64,000 nucleotides of DNA from Oscillospiraceae bacterium (GTDB lineage Bacteria > Bacillota > Clostridia > Oscillospirales > Ruminococcaceae), in NCBI GenBank assembly GCA_018110825.1, contig JAGBCL010000095.1, positions 392,563-456,562 of the forward strand, read 5' to 3'. Position 1 is the first letter of the stretch. Every line of letters starts with the position of its first letter. This document shows, piece by piece, positions 5,964 through 61,908 of this stretch. The notes beneath the pieces were generated by a model that saw only the letters and a list, made by a program, of their open reading frames with translations, was not told the origin of the DNA and did no database searches. A program made the translations under genes and the position numbers.

Positions 5964-7010
5964 ATGAAAAAACTAAACGAACTATTTACTGTAACTTATG
6001 GTGTGAATTTGGAATTATACAAGCTAACATTAAGTGATGGTTTGGATTCAATTAATTATGTATCTCGAACGAAAAAAAACAATGGTGTTTCTGCACGAGT
6101 TGAAAGAATTGCAAATCTCAAACCCAATCCGGCAAACACCTTGTCCATAGCTCTTACTGGAAGCGTTCTTGAAGTGTTTTTGCAAGAAGAAGAATATTAT
6201 TCAGGAAGAGATATCGCTTATTTAACCCCCATTAACAGTATGGATAGATACACCTTGCTAATGTATTGTACGCTTATTAGGCATAATCAATTTAAATATT
6301 GTCAAGGAAGAGGAGCGAATACCACAGTTGGGGAAATTTTGTTGCCCGAAATAAGCGAGTTGAGTAAGTATAAAAAATATGATGTTTTGCCTGATATATC
6401 GACTATTCCGGATTATTTTTTGGAAGAAGGATATGAGAAAGCTTGTTGGTATATGGATAACATAGATCAACATGATTTTGAAAATAAGTATAGACCTTCA
6501 TTTTTTAGCGAAAAGCTTGATACATACAGACAAAAAAGAAAAAGGAAACCTTGCTCGTTGAATGAAATATTCGCTATTGAATATCCTAAAACTCTTATAT
6601 ATGCAGAAATGCAGCCCTACTTAGATGGGATAAACTTTGTCAGTTCAAAAGGAAAAAACAATGGTGTGGTTGGACGAGTAGAGAAGAAAGACGGAATAAA
6701 GGTTTATCCTAAAGGATGCATAACTGTTCCTCTAAAAGGATCCGTTTTATCAACTGCTATTCAACAGGAAGATTGCTATGTAGCACATCAAACAGCCGTG
6801 TTAACACCTATTAAAGATATGAGTATATACACAAAAATGTATATCATTACCCTTATCAATGCAAATAAATTTAGATTCAATTATGGTAGGCAGGCAGATA
6901 ATACCTTGAAAGACCTAGAAATCGAACTCCCCATAGACGAACATGGCGATTTTGATTGGAAATATATAGATAACTATATAAAATCCTTGCCATATAGTGC
7001 AAATATTTAA
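5964..7010 (+). CDS. Specificity (S-like) subunit with two target-recognition repeats
   Basis: A 348-aa protein 2 nt after the methylase, with a GAGGAG ribosome binding site. It has two homologous halves. Each contains an INYVS/INFVS segment, a K(K/G)KNNGV turn, a VPLKGSVL/IALTGSVL strand and a closing (G)R(G/Q)A(N/D)NT motif. This two-TRD arrangement is that of type I HsdS and type IIB/IIG S subunits, where each half reads one half-site of a bipartite target. It would direct the N6-adenine methylase encoded just upstream. No HsdR gene is present in the window. Confidence 0.8.
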   Translation: MKKLNELFTVTYGVNLELYKLTLSDGLDSINYVSRTKKNNGVSARVERIANLKPNPANTLSIALTGSVLEVFLQEEEYYSGRDIAYLTPINSMDRYTLLMYCTLIRHNQFKYCQGRGANTTVGEILLPEISELSKYKKYDVLPDISTIPDYFLEEGYEKACWYMDNIDQHDFENKYRPSFFSEKLDTYRQKRKRKPCSLNEIFAIEYPKTLIYAEMQPYLDGINFVSSKGKNNGVVGRVEKKDGIKVYPKGCITVPLKGSVLSTAIQQEDCYVAHQTAVLTPIKDMSIYTKMYIITLINANKFRFNYGRQADNTLKDLEIELPIDEHGDFDWKYIDNYIKSLPYSANI

Positions 7011-7022
7011 TAGGAGATTATT

Positions 7023-7312
7023 ATGAACATTGCTTTTGTAGAGATTAGAAATTTCAGAAAGCTGAAAAGTTGCAGAAGAGATTTAAGCCCCCATCTACTA
7101 TATTTGTTGGAGCAAATAACAGCGGAGAAGCATCGGTAATGTTCGCTCTTATAAAGTTTTTGAAGAAACGTCAACTTGTTATAGAAGATTTTACATTGTC
7201 TAATTTGGCTACTATTGCACATTTAGGAGATAAATATGTTGACGAAGCCAATCCTATCATACCAAACAGTGAAGATTGCATCATTATTAGCTATAATAAC
7301 CCCATGTTTTAG
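7023..7312 (+). pseudogene. Decayed AAA/OLD-type ATPase gene
   Basis: The first frame starts with ATG at 7023 behind AGGAG and reads MNIAFVEIRNFRKLKSC, the usual N-terminal strand of OLD/RecF-type ATPases. It ends after 38 codons. A second frame from about 7070 continues the same protein family: TIFVGANNSGEAS, then FALIKFLKKRQ. A frameshift therefore splits the gene. The P-loop Lys is changed to Glu (GEAS instead of GKS), and the rest of the gene is missing. It lies 12 nt after the S-like gene, matching the position of ATPase genes behind the other two RM modules. Confidence 0.75.
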
Positions 7313-7510
7313 ATGTCTAAAAGGAAGGCAATAAGCTAGTTTAATAGAGAGCTGACCTGATATATTTCCAGTTGTTCTATTCTTAATTTGGTCAGAGCAA
7401 CGGACACACATCTTCCCAATTTATGAATGTTTGAAAACACGTTGTCAAGAAGCGAGATTTGGCGCAGGGGATTCTTCAAGATTTACAGATTAAAAAGAAA
7501 CATAATACAT

Positions 7511-7539
7511 AGTGGCAGTTGGAAATTCCAACTGCCACT
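7511..7539. terminator. Long perfect hairpin (14-bp arms)
   Basis: AGTGGCAGTTGGAA and its reverse complement are separated by a single A. This is a strong hairpin, with no clean T-run on either side. It lies downstream of the decayed ATPase gene and may have ended that operon. Confidence 0.5.
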
Positions 7540-7576
7540 ATTCTTAAATAAGAATCAAACCTGAATTTAATAATTC

Positions 7577-7695
7577 AGTCACGCGCTCTCAGATGTTGCC
7601 CATCCTCTGCACCGCTTTTTATGCAAGCAGGAACATCTGATTGATGTGAAGAACTTAGGCATAAAGGTTATCAAAGGCAAAACAAAATATAATTG
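7577..7695 (+). pseudogene. Unrecognised 3' gene fragment
   Basis: An open frame without a start ends at TGA 7693-7695 and reads ...HLIDVKNLGIKVIKGKTKYN. A good terminator follows at 7706-7744, so this is probably the tail of a lost gene. The family is not recognised. The fragment contains ACCGCTTTTTATGCAA (7611-7626), which recurs exactly at 7924-7939. Confidence 0.35.
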
Positions 7696-7705
7696 AGATT
7701 CAAAC

Positions 7706-7744
7706 CCGATAATTCCCTTGTGGAGTTATCGGGTTATTTCTTTT
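7706..7744 (+). terminator. Intrinsic terminator
   Basis: CCCGATAA and TTATCGGG form a stem, followed by TTATTTCTTTT. Confidence 0.7.
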
Positions 7745-8071
7745 CACTCAATAATATCCCTCATTGTTCCTTTTATAAGAAAACAAAACTCTGTCCTATT
7801 TGAAAAATATCCTAAAATGCAACTTTCAAAATATGCAATCCTGCAAACTTTTCGCTTGGGGTTATAAAATCCTCCTCCGACTGACCTTAATTTATGAAAG
7901 CTGTAATTTGCATTAAAAACATTACCGCTTTTTATGCAAAGCTACAAACTTTCAGAAATTCCCGAAAACAGACTTAAAAAATCGGGCGAAATTGTAGGTA
8001 CTTATGAAAGGGTGTAACGCTCTCTCAAATTTCAAGGAAAGGAATGATGTAAATGAAATTATTACAAGGAG
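7745..8071. other. Upstream region of the relaxase gene; candidate transfer origin
   Basis: No gene is visible. The 16-nt sequence ACCGCTTTTTATGCAA at 7924-7939 repeats 7611-7626. A region directly upstream of a MobA/L relaxase gene is the usual place for oriT, but I see no family signature that would fix the nick site. Confidence 0.35.
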
Positions 8072-9118
8072 GTGCTACATATTGCAATTTATCATTTTAA
8101 CGTCAAGGTCGTAAGCCGTGGCAAAAATGCAAGTGCGGTTGCGAAAGCGGCGTACATATCGGGAGAGAAAATTAAAAACAGCTATGACGGTGTTACCCAC
8201 GATTACCGAAAGAAGAAAGAAATTGTACATAAGGAAATTCTTTTGCCGTCAAACGCTCCACCTGAATTTATGAAACGTGATGTTCTTTGGAATGCTGTTG
8301 AGCAAGCAGAAAAGCGAAAAAACAGCCAAACCGCAAAGCACATTGACGCAGCTTTGCCATTGGAAATATCCCGTGATGAGCAGATTGATTTGGTACGGAA
8401 TTTTTGTCAGCAATGCTTCATTTCAAAAGGAATGTGTGCTGATTTTGCAATTCACGATAAGGGTGACGGTAATCCACACGTTCATATTCTACTCACCACA
8501 CGCAGAGTTAATGAGAATGGATTTACTGTAAAAGACCGTTCTTGGAATGACAAGTCGCTTCTGCTGGAGTGGAGAAAGCTGTGGGCGGATTGGTGCAATC
8601 ACAAGCTGTATGCTGTTTCCGATGAACGAATTGACCACAGAAGTTATGCGTCACAAGGAATTGATAAAATTCCGCAGATGCATTTGGGTGCGGCGGCTTG
8701 TGCGATTGAGAAAAAGGGTTATCGTACTGACAAGGGCAGTCGAAACAGACGGATTGCTCTGACAAATCTTGATATGAAGATTGAAGAGCAGAAACGTGAG
8801 TTAAATGACATTCGCTCCGAGAGAATACGGCTTCGCACAGATTATCTTGAAACTATTGTAGGCTGTCAATATTGCGAAATGCAGAAGCTTGAAGGTAACA
8901 TTTTGCATTTAAAAGATTTTGAGATTGAACTACGGAAAAGGAATGTACAATGTCACATTATGGGTATGACTGATGGCACGGGAGCAATTTTCTTCCCGAA
9001 AGCAGATTATGACAAAGCTGTCGAAGCTTTGAATGTAGTTGAAGGGAGAGCAAATACGACAACCGTGCCGCCTGAACAGAAACAGGACAAGCCTTTGAAG
9101 AAGCACCGTTCACGGTAA
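8072..9118 (+). CDS. MobA/MobL-family relaxase
   Basis: Relaxases of this family nick the transfer origin and pilot the DNA strand during mobilisation. The N-terminus (AIYHFNVKVVSRG, SAVAKAAYISGEKI) is the MobA/L signature. The metal-binding HVHILLTTR lies at about residues 136-144. The C-terminal third is charged and helical. At 348 aa it is shorter than many MobL proteins. The start is unusual: the AAGGAGG ribosome binding site covers the GTG at 8072. The family's normal N-terminus (M-A-I-Y-H-F) would align with ATT at 8081, ideally spaced from that site, so ATT initiation is possible. Confidence 0.9.
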   Translation: MLHIAIYHFNVKVVSRGKNASAVAKAAYISGEKIKNSYDGVTHDYRKKKEIVHKEILLPSNAPPEFMKRDVLWNAVEQAEKRKNSQTAKHIDAALPLEISRDEQIDLVRNFCQQCFISKGMCADFAIHDKGDGNPHVHILLTTRRVNENGFTVKDRSWNDKSLLLEWRKLWADWCNHKLYAVSDERIDHRSYASQGIDKIPQMHLGAAACAIEKKGYRTDKGSRNRRIALTNLDMKIEEQKRELNDIRSERIRLRTDYLETIVGCQYCEMQKLEGNILHLKDFEIELRKRNVQCHIMGMTDGTGAIFFPKADYDKAVEALNVVEGRANTTTVPPEQKQDKPLKKHRSR

Positions 9119-10003: not shown

Positions 10004-10128
10004 TTAAAATCCCCTGCATATTCTGTTCTGAAATTCTAATTTTCACATCTTGACTTTCGGCTGCTAAAGTGTTAAAATGTATGTGCAGGGGGATATTTTA
10101 TCCCCATAATATTGGGGGAAGGAGGACT

Positions 10129-11748
10129 ATGAATAACAAAATTAAGGTTGCGGCATACTGCCGTGTTTCTACGGATTATGAAGACCAATTAAATTCGCTT
10201 TCAACGCAGATTAAGTATTTCACTGAATACATAAGCAATCACGATGGCTGGGAACTTATTGAGGTTTACTATGACGAAGGCATAACGGGAACGTCAGTTA
10301 AAAAGCGTGACGGTTTCAACAGAATGATTAAGGATTGCGAAAACGGAAAAATCAACTTGATACTTACAAAAGAGGTTTCACGTTTTGCAAGAAATACCGT
10401 TGATACTCTTTGTTTCACCCGTAAGCTTTCATCGCTTGGCATAGGCGTTATCTTTATGAATGATGGTATTGATACCCGCGATAAAGACGGTGAGCTTCGA
10501 TTGACGATTATGGCTTCTATTGCTCAGGAGGAAAGCCGAAAGGTTTCCGAAAGAGTAAAATGGGGCATAAAGCGTCGAATGGAAAATGGCGTCATTCTTG
10601 GCTGCGGACGAATATGCGGATATAAGGTGGAAAATAAACAGATGGTAATTATTCCTGATGAAGCGGAAATTGTACAAAAAATTTTTCACACATATTTATA
10701 TGATGGTAAGGGCGCTAACACCATTGCGAGAGAACTTAATAATCAGGGACTGCGTACCGTTAACGGAAAGATGTGGTGCTCTCAGGCAATACTTCGTATT
10801 CTGCGAAATGAAAAATATGTAGGAGATTTGACGCAGTGCAAAGTATATTGTACCGATTATCTTACCAAGAAAATGGTCAGAAATCACGGAGAAAATCCTG
10901 ACAAGCCTCTAATTACCGTTTCGGAACATCACGATGGTATTATCCCCCGTGAACTCTGGGATGAGGTTCAGGCAGAACTGGAGCACAGAGGAAGGCTTAC
11001 CAAGGAAGGAATGAAACATTCCAAAACACATTGGCACAGCGACAAGATTTTCTGCGGAAAATGCGGAAAGCCTTATCATATCAACGGTAAGCACACTTAC
11101 AGAAACAGGCTTCTTCGATGCTCCAACAGGGCACGCTACGGAAAAACAGTACAAATTGATGAACACGGCAATACGGTTGGCTGTGATAATGAAAGTGTAA
11201 ACGAAAATGTTCTTGAGTGCTGTATAAAGCACGTTTTGGAAAAGGTAAAGTATTGCCGAAAGGATATTGAGCTTCGCTTAATTGAAGAAATAAAACTGGT
11301 GCAGAAATTTTCCAAAAAATCAGATACAAAAAAGCTTAAAAATGAAATTGAGCATTTAAAAGAGAAAAAGCGCAATGCGATTGACCTTATGCTTGAGGGT
11401 TTGATTTCGAAAGATGACCTGAAACAGCAAACGGAATTTTATGAATGTGAAATCACACGTCTTACCGAAGAAATTGCCAGAAACAAAAACATAGAGCATA
11501 CACATAAGGAGCAGCTTGAACGGATTCAGGAGTACATCGATATGGTCAATCAAACAGAAAATCTCGATACAGACAGTACCGAGATTTACAAAAATATGCT
11601 TGATAGGATAAATGTCTATGGGGGTAATGTGCTGGAGGTTTATCTTACCTGTATACCGTTTGGATTTCGTGTGAACTATCGTGTGGAACGCTGTTCAAGA
11701 ATAGGCAAATTTGATGTTTTTGTTGATGATTGCTGTATAGCTGCTTAG
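10129..11748 (+). CDS. Large serine recombinase
   Basis: 539 aa from the ATG behind GGAAGGAGGACT. It integrates and excises the element by serine-mediated strand exchange. The N-terminal resolvase domain has YCRVSTD with catalytic Ser14, then KEVSRFARNTVDTL and MASIAQEESRKVSERVKWG. A recombinase domain follows (GANTIARELNNQGL, WCSQAILRILRNEKYVGD). Next come a zinc ribbon (FCGKCGKPYHIN, LRCSNRA) and a long C-terminal coiled coil. All expected parts are present, so it looks functional. It is the last gene of the mobilizable element. Confidence 0.95.
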   Translation: MNNKIKVAAYCRVSTDYEDQLNSLSTQIKYFTEYISNHDGWELIEVYYDEGITGTSVKKRDGFNRMIKDCENGKINLILTKEVSRFARNTVDTLCFTRKLSSLGIGVIFMNDGIDTRDKDGELRLTIMASIAQEESRKVSERVKWGIKRRMENGVILGCGRICGYKVENKQMVIIPDEAEIVQKIFHTYLYDGKGANTIARELNNQGLRTVNGKMWCSQAILRILRNEKYVGDLTQCKVYCTDYLTKKMVRNHGENPDKPLITVSEHHDGIIPRELWDEVQAELEHRGRLTKEGMKHSKTHWHSDKIFCGKCGKPYHINGKHTYRNRLLRCSNRARYGKTVQIDEHGNTVGCDNESVNENVLECCIKHVLEKVKYCRKDIELRLIEEIKLVQKFSKKSDTKKLKNEIEHLKEKKRNAIDLMLEGLISKDDLKQQTEFYECEITRLTEEIARNKNIEHTHKEQLERIQEYIDMVNQTENLDTDSTEIYKNMLDRINVYGGNVLEVYLTCIPFGFRVNYRVERCSRIGKFDVFVDDCCIAA

Positions 11749-11760
11749 GTTGTGGTTTTG

Positions 11761-11847
11761 GTGCACAATGGTACTTTTGACAGCGGGGCTATCAGAAATC
11801 TTTGCGCTCTCCGAGGGGATGAGGCGATACGGCTTTATAAGAATTAG
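11761..11847 (+). pseudogene. Short 3' gene fragment after the recombinase
   Basis: A start-less frame ending at TAG 11845-11847 reads VHNGTFDSGAIRNLCALRGDEAIRLYKN. It has the composition of a real protein tail and may be what is left of a gene at the element's right junction. Family not recognised. Confidence 0.3.
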
Positions 11848-11861
11848 CAATGTCATAAATG

Positions 11862-13730
11862 TTATTTGTTTAATTTCGTAAAAAGAGATTTCCAAACATC
11901 CACATACTTGCTATCTATATCGCTTTTGCTTTTACTTTTGAGAATATTCTTTGCAGACTTCGCCATATCTACTTTCCAGCCTTTTTCTAAATCTATGGAA
12001 TATTTTTGAGCGAAGGCTTCAATTTGCGGGACAAGAGGAAGAGTATCATCATAATCATCTTCAAAGTCATCATCTTCAACAGTATTAAAAAGTCTAGATA
12101 TATATCTCTTTACAAGTATATATGGAATAATATCTTCGACCTCGCTGTTATCCATATTAGTTAGTGATTGAACATCGATAATTTTGGATTTGCTTTCTTT
12201 GTATAATCCAGATTGCAATTTATTGACGGCATCCTTACCGTTTTTATCTGAATCTACTATTACAAAGGGGAGTTCATCCGCCTTGCTACTAACTATACTT
12301 ACAACGCCAGATATTCCTTTTACGCCACCCGAAGGCATAAAGACAAGTTCCTGCTTAGGACAAATTATTTTTTCTTTTATTATGAATGTTTTTATCGCAT
12401 TTAAATAGTGCTGGTCAGAAGGACCTTCTACTACGATAGGTTGACATCCTTGCAATAAAATATCTGATACGCTTAAACCCATTGCAGCGTGTACAGCGTA
12501 GATTGAATGTTCGTTTAATGAAGCTGCTCCTTGTCTTAAATCGCTTGAAACAACTGTGTAACCTTCCTCATCCATATATACAACTCTGCATCTATCGATA
12601 TTTGTTGTATCAATAATAAACGGCGAATGTGTTGTATGTACGATTTGATTGTTTTCGGAAAGATTGTCAAAAAATTTCGACAGGTCTTTCTGCGCCATCG
12701 GGTGTAGCGTTAATCCAGCTTCGTCCAAAAGCAGTACTGAATTTTTATGTTGTTCTTGGCTTTCAACCAAGAAAATTAAATAAAAACTAATAAACCATTG
12801 CAAACCTGTACTACGCAATTCTAATGCAACTTCGTCTGGACGAATTTTATCAGACACCCAAATGTTAAAGTAATCACCGTCGGCTTCAAATCGAAATTTA
12901 TACTCTCCTTGATTCCACCAGTTTTTAAATTTGCGAGTAAGTTCTCCAGAAGCAGATTGCAATAAAATACTTCGTTGTTCTTTGTTTTTTTCCGCTTTCA
13001 ATATATCGTCTGGATTTGGAGTCGGATTCTGCGCTTTTGTACGCTCTTTTGCAATATCTTTGGGGTCTTTGCCTAATTCTAAAATTTCTTCTGGATTTAG
13101 TTTTACAAAATCAAAAAGTACACGTAAAGTTCGTACTTGTTCTTCGTTTGTATCAATGCCTGTTATAGTTTCACCATTCAACCATTTGACAACATAAGGT
13201 AAATATATTCTTGATGAAAGATTTCCATAATTAGAATAATAAACAAATTTAGGGATTTCATCTAATGTCACCTCGGTTAAGACCTTATTGAATTCTTCTT
13301 CAGAAACAATCTCTGTTTCTTCGCCATCCTCATTAGTTGAACAGATTTGATTTTGCAATGGGTATTTATCAAATCCGATTGTGCGATGACCGTCATAATA
13401 TTTTGAAACCGTAATAATGGTTTCTTTTTCAAATGTGCAGTTAGCTTTTTTAGATATAACTTCTTTGCTTTCTTCGTCAAGTATAAACTCTGCTTCAATA
13501 AACCTTACTTTTTGGATTTCGTTTCTTAATGAGCTTTGCTTTGATACAGGAAGGTCGTGCAAAACATCAATATTGCCTTCTCTTGCAGGATTTAATTTCC
13601 ATAACGCTAACAATACGTTAGACTTTCCAGACTCATTAACACCAACCAAAGTGGTAACATCATTACAATCTACCCAGCCGCTATCTTCAATAGAGCGGAA
13701 ATTTGTAACTCTAAAACGTAATAATTGCAT
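11862..13730 (-). CDS. OLD-family ATP-dependent endonuclease (AAA + Toprim)
   Basis: 622 aa. The ATPase part begins LRFRVTNFRSIEDSG, with Walker A GVNESGKS at residues 30-37. Walker B (LLLDEAGLTLHP) is followed by the H-loop (VHTTHSPFI). The C-terminal Toprim nuclease has PIVVEGPSDQHYL with the catalytic Glu, the FMPSGG turn and FVIVDSDKNG with the DxD pair. OLD nucleases, including GajA of the Gabija system, act in phage defence. No GajB-like helicase lies next to it. It starts 13 nt after the HpaII-like nuclease gene and is probably cotranscribed with that RM module. Confidence 0.9.
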   Translation of the reverse strand: MQLLRFRVTNFRSIEDSGWVDCNDVTTLVGVNESGKSNVLLALWKLNPAREGNIDVLHDLPVSKQSSLRNEIQKVRFIEAEFILDEESKEVISKKANCTFEKETIITVSKYYDGHRTIGFDKYPLQNQICSTNEDGEETEIVSEEEFNKVLTEVTLDEIPKFVYYSNYGNLSSRIYLPYVVKWLNGETITGIDTNEEQVRTLRVLFDFVKLNPEEILELGKDPKDIAKERTKAQNPTPNPDDILKAEKNKEQRSILLQSASGELTRKFKNWWNQGEYKFRFEADGDYFNIWVSDKIRPDEVALELRSTGLQWFISFYLIFLVESQEQHKNSVLLLDEAGLTLHPMAQKDLSKFFDNLSENNQIVHTTHSPFIIDTTNIDRCRVVYMDEEGYTVVSSDLRQGAASLNEHSIYAVHAAMGLSVSDILLQGCQPIVVEGPSDQHYLNAIKTFIIKEKIICPKQELVFMPSGGVKGISGVVSIVSSKADELPFVIVDSDKNGKDAVNKLQSGLYKESKSKIIDVQSLTNMDNSEVEDIIPYILVKRYISRLFNTVEDDDFEDDYDDTLPLVPQIEAFAQKYSIDLEKGWKVDMAKSAKNILKSKSKSDIDSKYVDVWKSLFTKLNK

Positions 13731-30706: not shown

Positions 30707-32143
30707 ATGAAAAAGACCTATGTTACGTCAATGCCCAACCATATCGGTGCCTTTCTGAAAGCAAGCAAGTGTTTTTCTGCTCTTGGAATCAATATAACAC
30801 GTGTCAGCTATAATAAGGCAGTTGATTCTCACACTCTTTTTATAGATGCTGAGGGTACGAAAGAACAGTTGGAAAAGGCTGATACAGAGCTTAAAAAAAT
30901 TGGTTATCTGCACAGTAACACCAATAAAACAAGTATCGTGCTGATTGAGTTTCAACTCAGGGATGTACCCGGAAGCGTTACGGACATATTAACTTTAATC
31001 AACGATTTTAATTTCAATATTTCATACCTCAGTTCGCAGGAAAATGGAACTGATTATCAACTTTTTAAAATGGGCTTATATGTTGAGGATTTTGATAAGA
31101 TAACCGAATTTATCAAAGAAGCTGAAAAGCTTTGCAAGGTACGTGTTATAGACTATAACAGCTCAGAGAAAATCTATGACAACAGCATATTCTATAATGC
31201 ATATGTTACGGGACTTTCTCAGATAATGGGGTTATCTGAGGATATCAGCCGTGAGTTGCTCGTCCATGTGAACCTTGCAATGCAGACGCTTGATGAACAA
31301 GGCTTGTCACCTTACAGAACCTTTGACAGTATAAGTAAATTTGCCGAGTTATTGGGCACATCAAAGGGTGAAGCATTTTCGCCGAGAATAAGTACGCATA
31401 AGATATCCGAAAATACGGAAATAACCTTGATAGAGCCTCCTTGCGGAAGCAATACCATGATTATAAGAAGCAATGACAAGTATTTGTTCGTTGATAGCGG
31501 ATATGCTTGTTACCGTGAGGAAATGCTGAAAATATTCAGAAATATTATTCCTGATTTTGAAAACGTAAAGAAAACCATTCTTGTAACTCATGCGGACGTT
31601 GACCATTGCGGGTTGCTGCCATTGTTTGATGAAATCATAGCAGGTGCAAAAACAGCACTTTGTCTGAAAAATGAATTCATCGGAAAAGATGGATATCGTG
31701 AGGAAAATCCGCTTCACAAGCCGTATATCAATATATGCAAGGCGCTTACTTCATACACGCCTGTAAATCCAGATAAAATCACAGTATTATGGAACAATAT
31801 TGAAGAATTGAAGGAACCTCTTACACAGGTAGGATTTTTTGATTTTGAAGAACTGCATTTTGAAGTGTACGAGGGTAAAGGCGGTCATCTACCTGGTGAG
31901 ATTGTGCTGATCGATTATAGAAATCACATTGCAATTACGGGTGATATCTATATAAACATCAAGGGACTTACCCGCGAACAGGCTGAATACAATCAGTATG
32001 CACCGATTCTGATGACTTCCGTTGATACTGACCCTGCACTGTGTGCTTTGGAAAGAAACGCTGTCATGCAGCGTTTGGGAGTAGGCAAATGGCAGATTTT
32101 CGGTGCACACGGATTCAAAAAGGATTATTCGGTCAGCTTTTAA
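30707..32143 (+). CDS. Tandem ACT domains fused to a metallo-beta-lactamase domain
   Basis: 478 aa. Two ACT-like ligand-sensing domains occupy about residues 1-150 (SMPNHIGAFLKASKCFSALGINITRVSY and LRDVPGSVTDILTLINDFNFNISYLSSQ). After a helical linker, a metallo-beta-lactamase fold follows: GSNTMIIRSNDKYLFVDSGY, the metal motif THADVDHCG, GKGGHLPGEIVLID and ITGDI. The motif is HxDxDH, not HxHxDH, which is a notable change. ACT domains usually bind amino acids, so hydrolase activity may be amino-acid-gated. It begins 25 nt after the importer ATPase gene. Confidence 0.8.
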   Translation: MKKTYVTSMPNHIGAFLKASKCFSALGINITRVSYNKAVDSHTLFIDAEGTKEQLEKADTELKKIGYLHSNTNKTSIVLIEFQLRDVPGSVTDILTLINDFNFNISYLSSQENGTDYQLFKMGLYVEDFDKITEFIKEAEKLCKVRVIDYNSSEKIYDNSIFYNAYVTGLSQIMGLSEDISRELLVHVNLAMQTLDEQGLSPYRTFDSISKFAELLGTSKGEAFSPRISTHKISENTEITLIEPPCGSNTMIIRSNDKYLFVDSGYACYREEMLKIFRNIIPDFENVKKTILVTHADVDHCGLLPLFDEIIAGAKTALCLKNEFIGKDGYREENPLHKPYINICKALTSYTPVNPDKITVLWNNIEELKEPLTQVGFFDFEELHFEVYEGKGGHLPGEIVLIDYRNHIAITGDIYINIKGLTREQAEYNQYAPILMTSVDTDPALCALERNAVMQRLGVGKWQIFGAHGFKKDYSVSF

Positions 32144-32173: not shown

Positions 32174-32290
32174 AAGGGATTACTGTGTTGTGCAGCAATC
32201 CCTTATTATATATATCCCGACCTATACAAAATAACAAAAATTGTATTTTCTAATTTGCAACAACCATTTGCCGAACCGTTGATATTTAGT
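32174..32290. repeat. Terminator hairpin plus dispersed AT-rich repeat
   Basis: AAGGGATT/AATCCCTT (32174-32204) probably ends the preceding operon. It is followed by the repeat segment CTACAAAATAAC..TTTGC(G/A)ACAACCAT, shared with 22.87, 35.77 and 45.64 kb. No gene lies between 32144 and 32350. Confidence 0.6.
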
Positions 32291-32350: not shown

Positions 32351-34084
32351 TTAATCGTCACCATCAAAAACTGAAATAATTGGGTATTCATCATAATTTT
32401 TGGTAGTTACATCAAGTTTATCATAAGGAACAAGACATGGATGTGTCTTGGCAATATCATTTCGATTTTTAGAATATCTGAATCCCTCTGTACGCATATA
32501 TGCGTTCCAGCGTCTGTGTTCAAGCTGCTTGTTTTCTTCGGTAACTTCAACATTCAAACCAAGACTCTTGCGGATTTTCCAGAACATTGATGCTGATATT
32601 GATGAGCGGTAATTAAACTCAAAATCATAAAATGCAGAAAAGTCTTCTTCCTGTTTTGAACCGTTCCACATAGAAAACATCTTCTTGCCCATTTTCTCAA
32701 GTTCAGTATTCATTATTTTTTCGTATGTGTAAATGTCATCAGGAAGAATAAAGTTTATGTCGTATGCCTGATGTTTATGGTTTGTTATATTTATCTGATT
32801 GTTACCATTGAAGTCAATATGTGACATAACAGTGTGAATTTCAGGTTTTGTTTCCATTCTTTCGAAGCATTCACGAAGATAAATCGCAGCTTCAAAATTC
32901 TTTTCATCATCACCAAGTGCAACAAACACAGCTGTTACTGATTTCATTTCAGGAATAGCTTCAATCTGTGCTTCAAAAATATCCTGTCCGTCAAAAAAGT
33001 TGATTTTGTAGTTGATTTCATCGTTGTCGGAAAGCAGTTCAGTATTGACAAGTTCAGGACATTTTACAGCAAATGAATTTCTGATATTGCGTATGTCAAA
33101 TACGTTTATGTTGAGTTTGTAATCAAGATGCTGACCTGACCATAACGCAGCCTTGAGGTATTCCTCGCCGTATTGTCCCATACCAATCACAGCAAGATTT
33201 ATTTCCTTGTTTTCGTTAACACAATCCAGCACAGGCTTTTCGTAGATGAAGTTGTATACAAGATTTTGTATTTCATTAATTCTGCGTACCCGTACACCGC
33301 AGTCATCAATGCCGTTAAGCAATGGTCCTGCTTTTTTCAGTGATGTGAAGAAATACAAGTCAATTCCTGTATTATCAGACGAATTTGTTTTCAGCTTTTC
33401 GGTAAGCTTAGGAAGTGTCTTGACAATGCTGAGAATAGCAATGGCATTGTTGAGATTAATAGCTTCGTCGTTATCACAGATAAAGAGTGTTATGTGTTTT
33501 GCAAATTTCAGAATTATAGGATTGATTTCGGAAATACTTCCGCTGAAACAAATAATATCATTCCGTGTGCGGAAGGTTGTGTTTTCGGAATTGTAAAAAA
33601 CAATTACCGCATCGGGATTATGTTTTTTTATATCTTCGGCAAGAAGCGTTGAGCGGGTGTTTGCACTTGAAAAAATATAAACATCCTTCATACCTGAAAG
33701 TGCAAGTCTGATACCCGAAGAAATGTTGCCGAAAATAGAAAGTATAAGTCCGAATGTAAGCAACGGTGCAATAAGATAAAGCAGGTTAAGTACAAAAACA
33801 TATGTGATATTGAACCACAAAGGAAGCGTACCAAAATCAAATTCCGAAGCGAAGAAATCTTCGTTGAGTCCGAAAACCTTTATCGAGCGTACAATTGAGA
33901 TAATTATTGTATTGATTGTGTCAGAAATGCTTGCACAGCTTTCAGACGGGAAAAACAATGCAAACAGCGCAAGGAATAACCCTGCGCCTGTTGTTAGAAG
34001 TTTATTTTCGGTGTTTCTGAAAAATCTTATTGCAGTTACAGCAAGTATTACAGCTGCAATTGAAAAGCAGATAATAAAAATCAT
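32351..34084 (-). CDS. Membrane protein with two Rossmann-like domains and a C-terminal RyR domain
   Basis: 577 aa. Three to four membrane segments lie in the first 120 residues. They are followed by a Rossmann-like domain (MKDVYIFSSANTRSTLLAEDIKK) and then a second with an NAD-type glycine motif (LAVIGMGQYGEEYLKAA), as in TrkA-N proteins. The last 57 residues (EHRRWNAYMRTEGFRY, then KTHPCLVPYDKL) match the RyR domain of ryanodine receptors. There is no ion-pore selectivity sequence. It is encoded 12 nt after a TIR protein and behind AAGGGG. A likely role is sensing a nucleotide or NAD product and acting at the membrane. Confidence 0.8.
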   Translation of the reverse strand: MIFIICFSIAAVILAVTAIRFFRNTENKLLTTGAGLFLALFALFFPSESCASISDTINTIIISIVRSIKVFGLNEDFFASEFDFGTLPLWFNITYVFVLNLLYLIAPLLTFGLILSIFGNISSGIRLALSGMKDVYIFSSANTRSTLLAEDIKKHNPDAVIVFYNSENTTFRTRNDIICFSGSISEINPIILKFAKHITLFICDNDEAINLNNAIAILSIVKTLPKLTEKLKTNSSDNTGIDLYFFTSLKKAGPLLNGIDDCGVRVRRINEIQNLVYNFIYEKPVLDCVNENKEINLAVIGMGQYGEEYLKAALWSGQHLDYKLNINVFDIRNIRNSFAVKCPELVNTELLSDNDEINYKINFFDGQDIFEAQIEAIPEMKSVTAVFVALGDDEKNFEAAIYLRECFERMETKPEIHTVMSHIDFNGNNQINITNHKHQAYDINFILPDDIYTYEKIMNTELEKMGKKMFSMWNGSKQEEDFSAFYDFEFNYRSSISASMFWKIRKSLGLNVEVTEENKQLEHRRWNAYMRTEGFRYSKNRNDIAKTHPCLVPYDKLDVTTKNYDEYPIISVFDGDD

Positions 34085-34096
34085 TTTATTTACCCC

Positions 34097-35653
34097 TTAT
34101 TTTGTGAGATAGAAATCAGTAAAAGCAATCTGCGGAGAGAAATGAGTAGAATCAGCAGCAATCTTGATGTGCTTGATGCCTGTTATGTCATATTCATAAT
34201 TCTTTGGAAGCTCAGATTTTACAACTGTAAACGGTTCTGCCTCCTCACCATCAAGCCAGATATGTACAATGACATCCTTTTCGTAATCGCTTCCGTCAAC
34301 ACGACCGGCAGAAAAAGTCATCTTCTGATATTCACCGCCGACATTGAACATAACCTGATTTTCATAATAGTTTGCATTAAGAACAACAGCAGTGTTGTAT
34401 TCAGCGCCTGCAACTATTACACTTTTTTCAAAATCATTGTCAAGAATGTCTGTTCTATGATATTCATATGGCATAAGGTCTGAGGGAATATTAAGCTTGT
34501 CAAGTGCTGTATCAAATGCAAGCGAAGCTGACGAAGGAACTTCATCATCAATATTCTTGCAAAGATAAAAATCCGTAAATGCAATCTGCGGAGAAAAATG
34601 ATTAGAGTCAGCAGCAATCTTGATGTGCTTGACGCCTGTTATGTCATATTCGTAATTCTTTGGGAGCTCTGATTTTGCAACTTTAAACGGTTCTGCCTCC
34701 TCACCATCAAGCCAGATGCGTACAATGACATCCTTTTCGTAATCGCTTCCGTCAACACGACCGGCAGAAAAAGTCAGCTTCTGATATTCGCCGCCAACAT
34801 TGAACATAACCTGATTTTCATGATAGTTTGAATTAAGAACAACAGCAGTGTTGTATTCAGCACCTGCAACTGTTATAGTTTTTTCAAAATCATTATCGAG
34901 AATATCTGCATTGTGATATTCATATGGCATAAGGTCAGCGGGAACAGCAGTAATATTCTGATTTGCAGATGGTGCTTCAGGTGTAGCTTCTGTACCGAGA
35001 GATTGAGTAGTTCCGATTGTGTTTTCATCAGTCGGAAGTACAACGTTTATTGAAGCATCATTCTGGTGTTCGGTTTTGTTTTTGTCACCTGAACGGCTTG
35101 CCCCGATAATTATGAATATAAGTACAAGCAGAATTATCGCTGCTGCAATCGGAACCTTATATTTCTTGAAATTTATGGGTGCATAAACAACAGTATTATC
35201 CTTTATTTCAGTAATGTTTACAGTATTTATATATGTAGAATTGCTTGTCTTTCTTTTGCCTGTAGCTGAAAAAATAGCATTGCAAAGTTCATCAATTTTA
35301 TAATCATTTTTGGCAACATCCGCAGTAATCCAGTGCGAATTCAGAAGATAATATTCAAATTCACCCTCAAGTTTTGTATTATCAATTTTATATGGAATAA
35401 TACACAGATTTCTTGCCCCTGCAAGTCCGATTTCTCTCGGGACCTGTGTGGATTTTGCGGAATTCTTGCTGTAAATGATAAGAAAAACTCTTGACTTTGT
35501 AATTGCATCATTTATTGATTTAGCCCAGTCTTCACCAGGAGTTATATCTCTTGATGAAATCCAGCAGCTGATACCTCTCGATTCAAGCTGACGGTATAGC
35601 ATTTTTGCAACTTCACTGTCGGCTGAACTGTGACTGATAAAAACATCTGCCAT
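34097..35653 (-). CDS. Membrane-anchored TIR protein with two external repeat domains
   Basis: 518 aa. Residues 1-130 are a TIR domain: DVFISHSSADSEVAKMLYRQLESRGISCW, then SRVFLIIYSKNSAKSTQVPREIGLA. Glu74 sits where the NADase Glu lies in catalytic TIRs. One membrane helix follows (VPIAAAIILLVLIFIIIGA, about 170-188) and a Ser/Thr/Pro-rich linker. Two nearly identical domains of about 120 residues come next (LMPYEYHNADILDNDFEKT to SPQIAFTDFYL), resembling NPCBM-type carbohydrate-binding folds. The TIR is thus inside and the binding repeats outside. It heads an operon with the RyR-domain protein. Confidence 0.85.
   Translation of the reverse strand: MADVFISHSSADSEVAKMLYRQLESRGISCWISSRDITPGEDWAKSINDAITKSRVFLIIYSKNSAKSTQVPREIGLAGARNLCIIPYKIDNTKLEGEFEYYLLNSHWITADVAKNDYKIDELCNAIFSATGKRKTSNSTYINTVNITEIKDNTVVYAPINFKKYKVPIAAAIILLVLIFIIIGASRSGDKNKTEHQNDASINVVLPTDENTIGTTQSLGTEATPEAPSANQNITAVPADLMPYEYHNADILDNDFEKTITVAGAEYNTAVVLNSNYHENQVMFNVGGEYQKLTFSAGRVDGSDYEKDVIVRIWLDGEEAEPFKVAKSELPKNYEYDITGVKHIKIAADSNHFSPQIAFTDFYLCKNIDDEVPSSASLAFDTALDKLNIPSDLMPYEYHRTDILDNDFEKSVIVAGAEYNTAVVLNANYYENQVMFNVGGEYQKMTFSAGRVDGSDYEKDVIVHIWLDGEEAEPFTVVKSELPKNYEYDITGIKHIKIAADSTHFSPQIAFTDFYLTK
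34111..34930. repeat. Intragenic direct repeat of about 355 bp
   Basis: Segments of about 34111-34470 and 34565-34925 are nearly identical in DNA as well as protein, separated by about 95 nt. The high nucleotide identity points to a recent duplication or gene conversion of the external domain of the TIR protein. Confidence 0.85.
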
Positions 35654-35683: not shown

Positions 35684-35712
35684 ATTGTACTATAATTTGC
35701 TTTTTATGTCAA
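35684..35712 (-). promoter_or_regulatory. Consensus promoter of the TIR/RyR operon
   Basis: On the minus strand: TTGACA (35712-35707), a 17-nt spacer and TACAAT (35689-35684), 31 nt before the TIR start. Confidence 0.85.
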
Positions 35713-54471: not shown

Positions 54472-56979
54472 TTAGTACCAATAATTAAAGATTCCTGGAG
54501 AATACATCAAATTTACAATATAAGATGCTTGTTCTTCTGTCAGTCCCATATTGTGTATGTATAGCTTTCCACCGTCATTCATTGTAATCGCCTTAAAAGT
54601 GTCAAGTGTATCGGCAGTAATATTATTTCCTGAGAGGAACAGCTCATCAAAGCCTTTAGAGCCACTTAATGCAGACACATCCGAAACGTTGTTATCAGCC
54701 ATATACAGCTTTTTAAGATTACGACAATTCTTTAACCCCGAAATATCCTCAACAGTTGCTTGAGTCAAACAAATAGTTTCAAGTTTTGTCATTCCCTCGA
54801 ATGCATCAAGATTTTTTATCGGACAACGGTTAAAACCAACAGCAACAAGATTTGTTAATTCGCTTATAGGTGAAAGGTCTGAAATAGGGTTATCATCAAG
54901 CCATAATTGTGTTACTTTGGTTTTATCTTTTAATGGAGAAAGATCGCTGATATTATTATTATGTGCACCCAGAACATCAAGATTATCAAGGTTTTTTACA
55001 AATGAAATATTACTGATATTATTGTTGTGAAGCTGAACATTTTCAAGCTTTGTAAGGTTTCCGAGTACAGAAACATCAGTAAGGTTATTGTCACACAAAT
55101 CAATATATGTAAGGTTAGTCATATATTTAAGGTCCTCAATATCCTCATCGTCAAGATTAAGTCCCATTAAGTAAAGTTCATCAAGCTCAACAGAATAATA
55201 TTTGTCACCGATTTTTATTTCTGATGGTGTACCAGGTGCTGTTTCAGGCGGCGTATCATTATTTTCAGAAATATCATAATTCTTGATATCAGTAATATCC
55301 TGAAGTGTGTCTTTGAAATAGGTCATATATTCAAGATTTTTTGCTGTTGCATTTTTCTGCATTGCTTCAAGTTTGTCGGTATATTTATCAAAGCAAGAGC
55401 CGTATTCGCAGATTTTGTAGCAAGGATTTCCTGCACTTTCATAATAGATTAATGCAATACCGTCTGTATTTGATGCAAAATAATTATAATAAATTAAAGA
55501 AGTAGATTCCTGCACGGAAATCAGAACGTTGCACTTATGCTCGTTCATAAGTTCTCCTGCATAACGGGTCAAAGTATCTTCATTGGTAGATGTAAGATAA
55601 TTATCAGGATCATTAACTATAAGCTTGGGTATAACCTTATCTGTTGTAGCAGTTACATCTTCATCTTTTTTCTTGTCTTTTGTTTTAGAAGATGCAGTAG
55701 TAGTTACAGCTGTACCTGGATTATCCCCGGATGAATTATTCTTTTCTTTTCCGCCAAACAGTACAATTGCCGCAATTATTCCTGCAATAACAACGATAGC
55801 TGTAATTATTCCGATTATGAGTTTAACAGGAACAGCCGCAGTTTCTTTTGATTGTTCAGCAGGAGCATCATTCGGTAAAGAGGATACTGTTGTTTCATTC
55901 TGCGTAATTTTAGGCTGTGTAGCTGTAAGATTAACTGTACCTATCGGTTGTGCAGTATGAACAACTTGATGAATAGGTGCTGATTCAACGGCATCAATTA
56001 TAGGTACAGCCTCAATTTCTGCATTTTCCAAAGCCTTACGGAAATCAAAGATATCAGCATACCTGTCTGTTATTCTCAGCATAGTTGCCTTTTCGATTAT
56101 TTCCCATAATTCTTCATTTATATTGTGGGAATTGGCAAGAAACTCACTGTCATCTTCCATTCGTGTCATCGGATCCTCAAGAGTATCAAGCGTCATTGAG
56201 TAATACAGCGATGCACCCAATGAATAAATATCTGTCCAAGGACCTTGTTTGCCTTTTTTCTGATACTGTTCAAGAGGAGCAAAACCAGGTTTCAGAATTA
56301 CCGAAAGGCTTTGTGATTTTTCTGCCATTACCTGACGTGCGGCACCGAAATCAAGGAGCTTTATCGTTCCATCATCACACAGCATAATATTATCAGGTGA
56401 AATATCACGATGAAGCACGTTGGAACTGTGTGCTATCATGAGAGCATTGGAAATAGCATTGGCAACAAAAATCGCTTGTTCCGCAGAAAGCGTGCCATGC
56501 TTATTTACGTATGATTTAAGAGTTTCACCTTTAAGATATTCCATTGAGAAATATACAGTATCATTTTCATAGAAGAATTCATATACGCTTACAATATTGG
56601 GATTGCCATTGAATTTTGAGACGAGTTTTGCTTCGTTGTAAAATTTTTCTGCACCGTTTTGAAATACACTTGCAGCTTCTGCGTTGGTAACTGAAACTGT
56701 CGGATTTCCATTTGCTCTTACTGCAAGTCCGAATGGATAAAATTCCTTTATGGCAACTGTTTTTTCCATTTTGGAGTCATATGCAAGATATGTTATTCCA
56801 AAACCGCCTTTTCCAATTACGTGACCAACAACGTATCTTCCCATAAGAACACTACCGCAAGGCAGTATGGTTGGGTCAGCTACAGCAGTATTCTTATTAT
56901 AACCGCATATTTCACACGTTTCTGAAGCTGTTTCTGCAAAACAGCTTTCACATAATTGTTTATTACCAAGTTTGATCAT
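54472..56979 (-). CDS. Transmembrane Ser/Thr kinase with TPM-like and LRR external domains
   Basis: 835 aa from the ATG at 56979 behind AAAGGA. A zinc ribbon (CESCFAETASETCEICGY) is followed by a Hanks kinase: IGKGGFGITYLAYD, the Lys in VAIKEFYPFG, HRDISPDN, LLDFGAAR and APLEQYQKKGKQGPWTDIYSLG. One membrane helix is at about 390-412 (LIIGIITAIVVIAGIIAAIVLF). Outside come a Thr/Lys linker, a domain resembling TPM/YgcG (VNDPDNYLTSTNEDTLTRYAGEL) and LRRs of the DLCDNNLTDVSVLGNLTKLENVQ type. It is the last gene of the FHA-PP2C-PP2C-kinase operon. Confidence 0.88.
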   Translation of the reverse strand: MIKLGNKQLCESCFAETASETCEICGYNKNTAVADPTILPCGSVLMGRYVVGHVIGKGGFGITYLAYDSKMEKTVAIKEFYPFGLAVRANGNPTVSVTNAEAASVFQNGAEKFYNEAKLVSKFNGNPNIVSVYEFFYENDTVYFSMEYLKGETLKSYVNKHGTLSAEQAIFVANAISNALMIAHSSNVLHRDISPDNIMLCDDGTIKLLDFGAARQVMAEKSQSLSVILKPGFAPLEQYQKKGKQGPWTDIYSLGASLYYSMTLDTLEDPMTRMEDDSEFLANSHNINEELWEIIEKATMLRITDRYADIFDFRKALENAEIEAVPIIDAVESAPIHQVVHTAQPIGTVNLTATQPKITQNETTVSSLPNDAPAEQSKETAAVPVKLIIGIITAIVVIAGIIAAIVLFGGKEKNNSSGDNPGTAVTTTASSKTKDKKKDEDVTATTDKVIPKLIVNDPDNYLTSTNEDTLTRYAGELMNEHKCNVLISVQESTSLIYYNYFASNTDGIALIYYESAGNPCYKICEYGSCFDKYTDKLEAMQKNATAKNLEYMTYFKDTLQDITDIKNYDISENNDTPPETAPGTPSEIKIGDKYYSVELDELYLMGLNLDDEDIEDLKYMTNLTYIDLCDNNLTDVSVLGNLTKLENVQLHNNNISNISFVKNLDNLDVLGAHNNNISDLSPLKDKTKVTQLWLDDNPISDLSPISELTNLVAVGFNRCPIKNLDAFEGMTKLETICLTQATVEDISGLKNCRNLKKLYMADNNVSDVSALSGSKGFDELFLSGNNITADTLDTFKAITMNDGGKLYIHNMGLTEEQASYIVNLMYSPGIFNYWY

Positions 56980-57011
56980 ACTGATCAATCCTTTCTGTTA
57001 ATCCGTTTCTA

Positions 57012-59670: not shown

Positions 59671-61275
59671 ATGAAAAAAATACGTTATTCAAAAATTATA
59701 GCGTTGGTTCTTGCAACAGGTATGCTTATGACAGGATGCGCAGAAGATACTGCTGCAGAAAATGAAACAACTGCATCAGAAACTTCAGCGTCCGTCGAAA
59801 ATGTCACAACAGCTAAGAATAAATTAGAACCGGAAGAAACAACGACAGCTCCTGCGGAAACCGAGATTGATTTAGGAACAGTTGCAACAGAAATCACACC
59901 TGAATATGATTTTTCTGATTTGCCTATTGAAGAACTGTTCACATATACTGTTTTTGATGACCATGTGAGAATTGACAAGTGTCTGAAATTCAGTGAACAG
60001 TACATTATTCCTGAAGAAATTGAAGGTAAAAAGGTAACAGAAATCGGTGAATACTGTTTTACTGATTTATCAGGTTCTTATGAACGCAATGTAATAAAGA
60101 ATGTTTTTCTGCCGGATACAGTTGAAGTTCTGAATGAGTGTGCATTCAGTGGTGTTGGTGAATTGAGTGGTGTAACAATAACCGTACCCAAAAACCTCAG
60201 GAAAATAGGAGAGAGTGCTTTTTCATCCTGCGGACTTGTAGATATTACAATTCCCGCAGGTGTAACTGAAATAGGTGAAAATGCTTTTTCGAGTGCTGCA
60301 TATCTTAAGTATGTTAAATTCGAAGGACAACTTGAAAGCCTTCCCGGTGGATGCTTTTGGGGCTGTGAGAACTTAAAATATTTATATCTGCCTGAAAAGC
60401 TTGTTTCAATAGGTAATAATTGCTTTAATGAATGTGAAGCTCTCGAAGAAGTAACAATTCCTGATAGTGTTGTTGAAATAGGCGATACAGCTTTTAACGC
60501 TTGTGCAATTGATAATCTGACTATTCCTGAAACTGTTGCATATATCGGAAACGGAGCTTTTAATAATACACCTTTTCTTGAATCGAATCAGCCGCTTATT
60601 ATAAACGGAATACTTGTTGATTATAGTTCAGCAACTGATGATGTAGTCCTTGCTGACAATATAACTGTTATTGGTGAAGGTGCATTCATCGGAAACAAGC
60701 AGATAAAAAGCGTAGACATTCCTGACAGTGTTACTGTTATTGGTAGCCGTGCTTTTCAGAGATGTAAAAATCTTGAAAGTGTTAAAATTCCTGAAAGTGT
60801 GACGAAAATTGAAAGTGCTGCTTTTTATGGATGTGAAAAGCTTAATAATGTAGTTATTCCTGACAGCGTTACATTTATTGGGGATTCTGCTTTTGAAAGA
60901 TGTGAAATCCTGAGTGATATTACAATTCCTGAAACAATATCTGATATTGATGGAAGTGCATTTGATTATACGCCTTTCCTTGAAGCAAATCAGCCGCTTA
61001 TCATAAACAATACACTTATTCGTTATTCTTCCGATGATGAAATAACAGAAGCAGTCATCCCTGATGGGGTAACAAAAATAACACCGTATGCTTTTAAAAG
61101 GTTCGAAATTAAAAGCGTATTCATTCCAGACAGTGTGACTGAAATAGGGGAGGGTGCATTCTTAATTTGCGAATACCTTACAAGTGTAAGTATGCCTTCT
61201 GATGTAATTGTCGGCGAAAATGCCTTTGCAGGAACACCTGTTGAGCAGGATAGCTCACTTATTGAATACAGATAA
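59671..61275 (+). CDS. BspA-type leucine-rich-repeat lipoprotein
   Basis: 534 aa. Lipoprotein signal peptide with lipobox LMTGC, then a Thr/Glu-rich linker. About 17 LRR_5 repeats of the BspA/Treponema type follow (VTEIGEYCFTDL, LRKIGESAFSSCGLVDITIPAGVTEIGENAF). Surface-anchored, probably in binding or adhesion. It is transcribed divergently from the FHA operon, next to two kinases with other LRR types, and could be a ligand or co-receptor. Confidence 0.88.
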   Translation: MKKIRYSKIIALVLATGMLMTGCAEDTAAENETTASETSASVENVTTAKNKLEPEETTTAPAETEIDLGTVATEITPEYDFSDLPIEELFTYTVFDDHVRIDKCLKFSEQYIIPEEIEGKKVTEIGEYCFTDLSGSYERNVIKNVFLPDTVEVLNECAFSGVGELSGVTITVPKNLRKIGESAFSSCGLVDITIPAGVTEIGENAFSSAAYLKYVKFEGQLESLPGGCFWGCENLKYLYLPEKLVSIGNNCFNECEALEEVTIPDSVVEIGDTAFNACAIDNLTIPETVAYIGNGAFNNTPFLESNQPLIINGILVDYSSATDDVVLADNITVIGEGAFIGNKQIKSVDIPDSVTVIGSRAFQRCKNLESVKIPESVTKIESAAFYGCEKLNNVVIPDSVTFIGDSAFERCEILSDITIPETISDIDGSAFDYTPFLEANQPLIINNTLIRYSSDDEITEAVIPDGVTKITPYAFKRFEIKSVFIPDSVTEIGEGAFLICEYLTSVSMPSDVIVGENAFAGTPVEQDSSLIEYR

Positions 61276-61296
61276 ACAAATCCATCTGCAAAAATA

Positions 61297-61332
61297 ATGC
61301 CGCACCAAAATTTATTGGTGCGGCATTTGTTA
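61297..61332. terminator. Terminator hairpin after the LRR gene
   Basis: ATGCCGCACCAA/TTGGTGCGGCAT (61297-61308 and 61315-61326), followed by TTGTTATT. It lies between convergent genes and may serve both. Confidence 0.75.
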
Positions 61333-61908
61333 TTCACAATAAAAAAGAATAAAAAGTTCTTCATTATTTATATTGATTATTGTTCCGTAAGCAGTATTGC
61401 ATCTGCTCCATCTTTCGGGATGATATTCAGATAAAATATAGAAGCGGCCCAAATCACAATAATAATCTTCACACATAGTTTCACCGTCTGAGTACTTATG
61501 TCTGACAATTCCATTGAACTTGTATTTGAAACAAATATCTTTTTTTGAATGTATCATAGCAGCTTTTTGGCGTGCGTTTATTTCAGATTGCATCCGGAAG
61601 TAAATTATCAGCATAACAACAGGCAAAACAATTAATAAACCGCTTAGCTTGATTCCCATATTGGAATTCAGTACGAAAAGTATGCATAAAAAATCTAAAA
61701 TAGCAGATATGATTCCAATTGTCAGAAATATCGAAGAAATTTTTTTGGTTTTCTCATTGAAAACAGATATACAATCACGCAATGCGTACTCTAATGTTTC
61801 ATTAAAATGACATTGTGTACCGGATTGTATATATTCCTTCAAGCTATCGCTTACAACAGAAAAATTTTTCTGCACTACTGAGGGCTTTTTGCATACATCG
61901 ATAATCAT
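61330..61908 (-). CDS. Small membrane protein of unknown function
   Basis: 192 aa. Two adjacent hydrophobic helices at about residues 58-103 (IFLTIGIISAILDFLCILFVL and GLLIVLPVVMLIIYF) separate an N-terminal and a C-terminal cytoplasmic part. The C-terminal part has Cys and aromatic residues (MCEDYYCDLGRFYILSEYHPERW). No family recognised. The end of the gene overlaps the terminator of the convergent LRR gene. Confidence 0.6.
   Translation of the reverse strand: MIIDVCKKPSVVQKNFSVVSDSLKEYIQSGTQCHFNETLEYALRDCISVFNEKTKKISSIFLTIGIISAILDFLCILFVLNSNMGIKLSGLLIVLPVVMLIIYFRMQSEINARQKAAMIHSKKDICFKYKFNGIVRHKYSDGETMCEDYYCDLGRFYILSEYHPERWSRCNTAYGTIININNEELFILFYCE

Follow-up and report, generated by a model that had tools for sequence, protein, structure and literature searches.

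A recurrent bacterial gene pair joining a membrane TIR protein to a RyR-domain membrane protein: a candidate unit for cyclic ADP-ribose-type signalling

A stretch of 64,000 nucleotides (nt) from an Oscillospiraceae bacterium (assembly GCA_018110825.1, contig JAGBCL010000095.1, positions 392,563 to 456,562), here called the window, carries on its minus strand two adjacent genes that recur together in other genomes. Gene 1 (34097..35653, 518 amino acids (aa)) encodes a TIR domain, one transmembrane (TM) segment and two NPCBM repeats, and is presumed to be both receptor and signal synthase; gene 2 (32351..34084, 577 aa) encodes TM segments, two putative Rossmann/RCK-like domains and a ryanodine receptor (RyR) domain, and is presumed to be both signal receptor and membrane effector. 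The catalytic glutamate of the TIR domain and the ligand residues of the RyR domain are conserved among relatives, and the cytoplasmic part of gene 2 is kin to that of K+-channel-like proteins. The pair probably, if only narrowly so, forms a two-gene signalling unit in which an outside sensor would cause the TIR domain to make a signal of the cyclic ADP-ribose (cADPR) type and the RyR-RCK membrane protein would open in response.

Both open reading frames (ORFs) are intact and co-directional, with 12 nt from the stop of gene 1 to the start of gene 2, just as a preliminary description of the operon, made from the sequence alone, had stated, and the ribosome-site-like AAGGGG precedes either start codon. 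That description had also given gene 1 a TIR domain with Glu74 at the NADase position, one membrane helix and two carbohydrate-binding-like repeats, and all of these were found. The TIR domain covers residues 4-97 (35363..35644; PF13676, TIR_2, E 4.5e-22), and its residue 74 is a glutamate (codon 35432..35434) that is kept, together with F5 and S7, in 27/27 aligned RyR-linked TIR domains, the window's included; several members of this alignment are clipped by contig ends and one is a TIR-RyR fusion. This conservation argues against a TIR domain that acts purely as a scaffold, though it does not prove catalysis. Hydropathy places the single TM segment at residues ~167-185 (35099..35155), and the NPCBM repeats follow at residues ~238-366 (34556..34942) and ~390-518 (34100..34486), as delimited by PF08305 and a repeat alignment. 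PF08305 matches in two stretches (E 4.5e-12, 46.6 bits against a cut-off of 23.9), and, by our own count on the alignment, 15 of its 129 aligned positions distinguish one repeat from the other. The nearest receptor layout, likewise TIR-TM-NPCBM, is found in another genus (locus L143), where the protein aligns along the length of gene 1 with 30% identity over 537 positions.

The product of gene 2 begins with a membrane part (33743..34084) whose three hydrophobic segments, by hydropathy, start at residues 1, 29 and 96, and it ends with the RyR domain (residues 513-568, 32381..32548), so that the downstream membrane protein with a C-terminal RyR domain was recovered as first described. PF02026 matches residues 522-568 with E 1.6e-7 (31.9 bits against a curated cut-off of 27.4), and further matches to this stretch are bacterial RyR domains of solved structure (1.3e-7) and human RyR3 (1.1e-4). 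The two Rossmann-like domains of the preliminary description fared less evenly, as Pfam finds no Rossmann/TrkA_N domain in the window protein itself; the assignment is based on the GMGxxG motif at residue 301, on 3/42 relatives that match TrkA_N and on a profile match to a K+-channel-like family. Motif and profile match place the second domain at residues ~294-417 (32834..33205). Across an alignment of 14 family members, in which the others share 30-34% identity with the window protein, the N-terminal membrane part and the RyR domain are retained, as are two Rossmann motifs, the first of FSELN type (FSSAN in the window protein) and the second GMGxxG-like; G301, G303 and G306 are invariant in 14/14 rows. 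When profiles were compared with profiles, the match between the gene 2 family and the K+-channel-like one began at the last TM segment and continued through the RyR domain (E 3.2e-19); for a shorter family, of 470 aa, the comparison gave E 1.1e-46. PADLOC (2023) and NCBIfam models gave no match to gene 2 at E<=1. Two partial relatives were also seen: a goat-colon metagenome-assembled genome (MAG) holds a 194-aa C-terminal relic, 66% identical to gene 2 and devoid of TM segments (L018, 6082-6666), and a 1412-aa frame in the window's own genus (L111, G975:C30) matches the Rossmann part of the gene 2 family (E 2.1e-9).

The preliminary description had left the recurrence of the pair to a survey of genomes and had named a lack of recurrence as refuting; the survey showed that the pair does recur. 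Of 197 family genomes searched for RyR, 13 were positive (the window's included), and of 394 order genomes searched with a long-RyR profile, 43 gave a match; the DNA surrounding each locus was fetched, and a simple script called its genes. Counting one locus per genome and RyR ORFs of at least 280 aa, a TIR gene lies within 5 kb in 19/43 long-RyR loci from the order and family draws (18/42 without the window), a count kept apart from the genomes with stand-alone RyR only (G178, G492, G365, G549, G448), the phylum draw and the plasmid and phage records. The expectation for 43 loci is 0.64, as calculated from 133 TIR_2 matches in 48 genomes (Poisson P ~1e-21, under a model that ignores the clustering of defence genes). 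Because the model disregards this clustering, a TrkA_N control was made: in the 19 pair-bearing genomes, 0/74 TrkA_N matches lie within 6 kb of a TIR gene, and where the two share a contig the smallest distance is 21.8 kb. This control covers RCK-like genes, not defence genes as such; among its 74 matches, some proteins are counted more than once and 11 matches fall below the cut-off. Pfam returns the same 19 TIR-near loci, as does our own hidden Markov model (HMM), which is no independent check, these loci having served to train it. The loci then fetched contain 61 RyR ORFs that reach 280 aa. Of these, 29 (23 loci) lie no more than 5 kb from a TIR gene and 19 (18 loci) no more than 200 bp from one; each of the 19 is on the strand of the TIR gene, two of them flank one TIR gene, and one is a fusion. 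In the fusion (G225, L106), a single 669-aa ORF joins both domains (Pfam TIR_2 8.8e-12, RyR 4.2e-18).

In a second draw, a profile of the gene 2 subfamily matched 29 of 396 family genomes, and a TIR gene, Pfam-confirmed in every case, was present in 7/20 fetched stretches (6 genomes, 4 genera); the 20 stretches came from 19 of the 29 matching genomes, and of the other ten, five were already covered, the window's among them, and five lay outside (G978, G1070, G1128, G1151, G1157). In the phylum draw, 10/398 genomes matched, one being the window's, and a TIR gene is close in 4/8 long-RyR loci (L096, L100, L103, L104), L103 and L104 belonging to the same genus; the count of eight leaves aside L101 (a 1507-aa ORF that matches RyR weakly) and L105 (a stand-alone RyR), both of which have TIR genes. 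That the two genes are unrelated and neighbours by chance would fit the 24/43 loci with no TIR gene within 5 kb, yet the excess over expectation with or without the window, the shared strand at every close pair and the fusion make this scarcely credible, and at the family level it is already refuted. As for those 24 loci, a contig end lies within ~2 kb in six (L061, L070, L071, L079, L082, L095), and their recurrent neighbour clusters include only one of interest, a transglutaminase-like group in L064-L066, which is based on a Pfam match for the L066 member and BLAST links to the L064 and L065 members, the last without a Pfam match.

What the RyR domain may bind is suggested by phage proteins. 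According to a 2026 preprint (PMC13232231), phage RyR proteins, RyDEP and its relatives, bind or cleave the TIR products 2'/3'cADPR; RyDEP, a phage RyR-domain anti-Thoeris protein, disarms Thoeris. Residues H523, W526, H548 and D565 of gene 2 correspond in identity and exact spacing (3, 22, 17) to H75, W78, H100 and D117 of RyDEP. Across 42 aligned long RyR proteins, H523 is present in 42, W526 in 41, H548 in 40 and D565 in 39, with all four in 38; the alignment takes in 42 of 48 long RyR proteins, those omitted being L049, one of L062, L075, L079 and both of L087. Stand-alone RyR proteins (n=14) differ, with Thr at the place of H548 in 10 and all four residues in 4. Stand-alone RyR genes of ~95 aa adjoin long RyR genes in L073, L074, L081, L084, L087 and others, and in L074, whose stretch has two TIR genes, a 1124-aa protein with IetA- and DolB-like matches (4744-8118) is also encoded between RyR genes; a PADLOC run on ten neighbour proteins gave matches for two.

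The kinship of gene 2 with channels comes from relatives that keep a K+-type filter. Four RyR proteins contain TVGYG (L060, L061, L062, L149), and their cytoplasmic parts are related to that of gene 2. Ion_trans_2 matches 3/42 long RyR members and also L149 (E 2.7e-13), and the L060 protein matches KcsA at residues 30-111 (4.3e-14) and animal RyR2 at residues 458-512 (3.5e-12). In L060, L062 and L149, the gene order is a filterless RyR membrane protein, an RyR K+-channel-like protein and a TIR-TM protein; in L061, the contig ends 0.8 kb past the TVGYG gene. Gene 2 itself has neither the filter (T-x-G-Y/F-G) nor a Pfam channel match, and the word channel therefore rests on distant kin; the protein could instead carry a different ion, damage the membrane or serve as an off-switch.

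From these features, the following course of events could be proposed. Gene 1 would be a one-pass receptor with its lectin-like NPCBM repeats outside the cell and its TIR domain inside, and binding of a glycan, a glycosylated invader or a cell-wall product by the repeats would cluster the TIR domains. Once clustered, these may convert nicotinamide adenine dinucleotide (NAD) to a cADPR-type signal, which the RyR domain of gene 2 would bind, and the two RCK-like Rossmann domains would then relay the binding to the membrane segments, so that a channel opens and the ion gradient collapses. Gene 2 may also switch the signal off, because its RyR domain retains the His and Asp with which phage RyDEP cleaves the signal. 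The interpretation given in the preliminary description, in which external repeats sense a surface event and a TIR product acts on the membrane protein, thus gains partial support from the recurrence of the pair, the invariant glutamate and the role of phage RyR proteins in PMC13232231.

Several observations weigh against this signalling unit. Besides the 24 loci without a nearby TIR gene, four of which are in genomes with no TIR_2 match anywhere, and the lack of a filter or channel match in gene 2, metabolic genes immediately flank gene 2 in the window. In a looser HMM alignment of 65 RyR stretches, all four ligand residues occur in 40, 10 stop before the last of them and 15 differ, and in PMC13232231, 6/8 tested homologues bind the signals, 2/8 do not, and no tested homologue besides RyDEP cleaved them. 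Structure prediction gave unusable models of both window proteins (mean pLDDT 35.7 and 38.6). Finally, hydropathy finds no TM segment in 10/61 long RyR proteins, including 5 of the 19 that adjoin a TIR gene, and a membrane effector is therefore not universal: L080 has a TM-less AAA protein with two RyR domains next to a TIR gene, and the RyR protein of L143 is 252 aa long and TM-less, with its C-terminal half 43% identical over 126 positions. These TM-less partners slightly lowered our confidence both in the signalling unit and in its extension to a wider bacterial axis, set out below.

The TM-less proteins also favour a reading in which gene 2 is an off-switch, its RyR domain binding or hydrolysing the TIR signal, with the effector elsewhere or NAD loss itself doing the harm. 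The RyR ligand and catalytic residues are all retained, the relatives studied in PMC13232231 comprise one cleaver and sponges, and a TIR gene lies near 7/14 stand-alone RyR genes (L054, L073, L074, L092, L093, L101, L105). In L143, moreover, a DHH/DHHA1 protein (5210-6718), a possible other effector, is encoded between the TIR-TM-NPCBM gene and that of the soluble RyR protein. Yet TM segments and two Rossmann domains would be superfluous for a mere sponge, four relatives have the K+-type filter, and L073, L074, L081, L084, L087, L137 and L138 have separate stand-alone RyR genes alongside the membrane form; an off-switch as the whole role of gene 2 is considered unlikely.

A second alternative takes the TIR protein as an outside-triggered toxin that depletes NAD, with the Rossmann domains of gene 2 sensing NAD/NADH and regulating ion homeostasis. 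It would agree with the conserved catalytic glutamate, and RCK/TrkA_N folds often bind NAD. The element common to the partners is instead an RyR domain with what appears to be a cADPR-type pocket, and none of the 74 TrkA_N matches in the control lies by a TIR gene, which leaves this alternative very unlikely.

The sensor side of the pair varies from locus to locus. Pfam finds TIR_2 in 19 of 20 partner proteins, the twentieth, on an Arcobacter plasmid, being DUF4062. One hydrophobic segment follows just after the TIR domain in 14/34 RyR-linked TIR proteins, so the membrane TIR protein with its sensor outside, first described as an oddity, is not a one-off. The TM segment is followed by leucine-rich repeats (LRR) in L069 and L077, and LRR without a TM segment occur in L075, L103 and L104; other partners carry RHS/MORN-type repeats (L060, L062), DUF6273 with DUF5050 (L080), propeller-like PQQ_2-type repeats (L140 and L145 over the cut-off, L144 and L149 under it), NB-ARC with TPR (L148, L151), TPR (L058) or, as in the window and L143, NPCBM.

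Whether such sensors would face phages or something else bears on the purpose of the pair, which could plausibly be phage defence or cell suicide. The same wiring may instead sense glycans, cell-wall damage or kin, which is compatible with the signalling steps proposed above. NPCBM is a carbohydrate-binding-type domain, glycoside hydrolases and transporters are encoded among the neighbouring genes, and three pattern-based scans of viral contigs (two with RyR-protein alignments, one with gene 1), a kind of scan with limited reach, found no relative. Plasmids gave no match to gene 2; a query with L060 found one Arcobacter plasmid (L108, CP146529.1), on which NAD-binding, RyR and DUF4062-TPR genes stand in a row with an integrase adjacent and a type I restriction subunit nearby. 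One unverified faecal scaffold among the phage records (MT835673) has a gene 2 relative, with no TIR gene in the part fetched. Defence is favoured because the spread within the genus is patchy, a truncated relic exists in a related MAG (L018), the sensors turn over, and phages carry counter-proteins of the RyR family (PMC13232231). Only 3/21 genomes of the window's genus match, the window's at full length, G178 with a stand-alone RyR and G975 with the Rossmann part in its 1412-aa frame. Sensing of glycans, damage or kin is regarded as doubtful.

If the varied sensors are taken together, a wider bacterial axis could be envisaged, in which interchangeable Toll-like (TIR-TM with LRR, NPCBM or propeller) and NLR-like (TIR-NB-ARC-TPR) receptors would make a cADPR-type signal that acts on common RyR-RCK channels, with stand-alone RyR proteins as off-switches. 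This extension is held tentatively, as possible rather than probable. If true, the animal link between cADPR and the ryanodine receptor would have a prokaryotic immune counterpart or ancestor, of which RyDEP would be a captured part. TIR signalling would gain a channel-type effector with an RyR ligand domain, bacteria would have Toll- and NLR-built receptors with an outside sensor, and a reason would be suggested why phages carry RyR proteins. RyR as a direct cADPR receptor could be tested in a bacterial protein of 577 residues, or in a K+-channel-like one of ~520.

The source genome is 3.1 Mb in 124 contigs and 96% complete, with gene 2 as its only RyR match and one further TIR_2 match. A promoter-like TTGACA-17-TACAAT lies upstream of gene 1 (35684..35712, minus strand), and the consensus promoter of the preliminary description was confirmed as an 11/12 match with 17-nt spacing; the whole scan found 21 promoter-type sites against a mean of 17.9 in shuffles, no overall excess, and what speaks for this site is therefore its quality and position only. 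About 150 nt past gene 2 is a terminator-like stem of 12 pairs (32174..32204, minus strand), which is also 3' of a converging plus-strand gene. Elsewhere in the window, a metallo-beta-lactamase domain is fused to ACT domains beside ABC transporter genes (30707-32143, plus strand), and an 838-aa protein joining a Ser/Thr kinase domain to leucine-rich repeats (54472-56988, minus strand) is another sensor-like modular protein. A large serine recombinase adjoins an AAA_15/AAA_21 ATPase (10069-13730), possibly as a mobile or abortive-infection-like unit, and a transglutaminase-like protein accompanies a BspA-type LRR protein (59671-63567).

Among the literature matches listed, PMC13232231 alone joins RyR domains with bacterial TIR signals in titles or abstracts, and its main text does not mention 'Rossmann', 'membrane' or 'bacterial RyR'. 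No description of the TIR/RyR-membrane pair was found among those matches, and a prior mention elsewhere is possible. With Thoeris, the pair shares a TIR protein with a conserved glutamate beside a gene whose product contains a domain from a family that can bind cADPR isomers, and gene 1 matches PADLOC ThsB models to 5.2e-10 in its TIR part only; its best PADLOC match is not ThsB but the TIR of a short-Argonaute system (5.9e-11). The pair differs in that the TIR protein is a one-pass receptor with NPCBM outside and its partner is an RyR-Rossmann membrane protein. It may work like Thoeris, as a TIR with a signal-gated effector, but has no ThsA-type effector of a modelled kind. RyDEP has in common with gene 2 the RyR domain and its four ligand residues, spaced identically; it is a phage anti-Thoeris protein, whereas the membrane protein of gene 2 is chromosomally encoded in a TIR operon. 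NPCBM fused to TIR was proposed as a lectin-like invader sensor in eLife 2021 (PMC8195603), where such conflict proteins are called intracellular and occur with AP-ATPase and caspase genes; in the window, a TM segment stands between NPCBM and TIR, and the partner is an RyR protein. RCK K+ channels with a KcsA-type pore resemble gene 2 in having a TM part followed by RCK-like domains, which in gene 2 are putative, and its kin have TVGYG, whereas gene 2 lacks the filter and has RyR as its ligand domain. A K+ channel with RCK domains is the MthK-like layout. Animal ryanodine receptors (Repeat12 domain) are homologous in the RyR domain, the rest of the giant receptor being absent from gene 2. Toll-like receptors follow the same logic of ectodomain, TM segment and TIR, and L069 and L077 even have LRR beyond the TM segment, whereas in the window the TIR domain is N-terminal, keeps its catalytic glutamate and is paired with an RyR partner.

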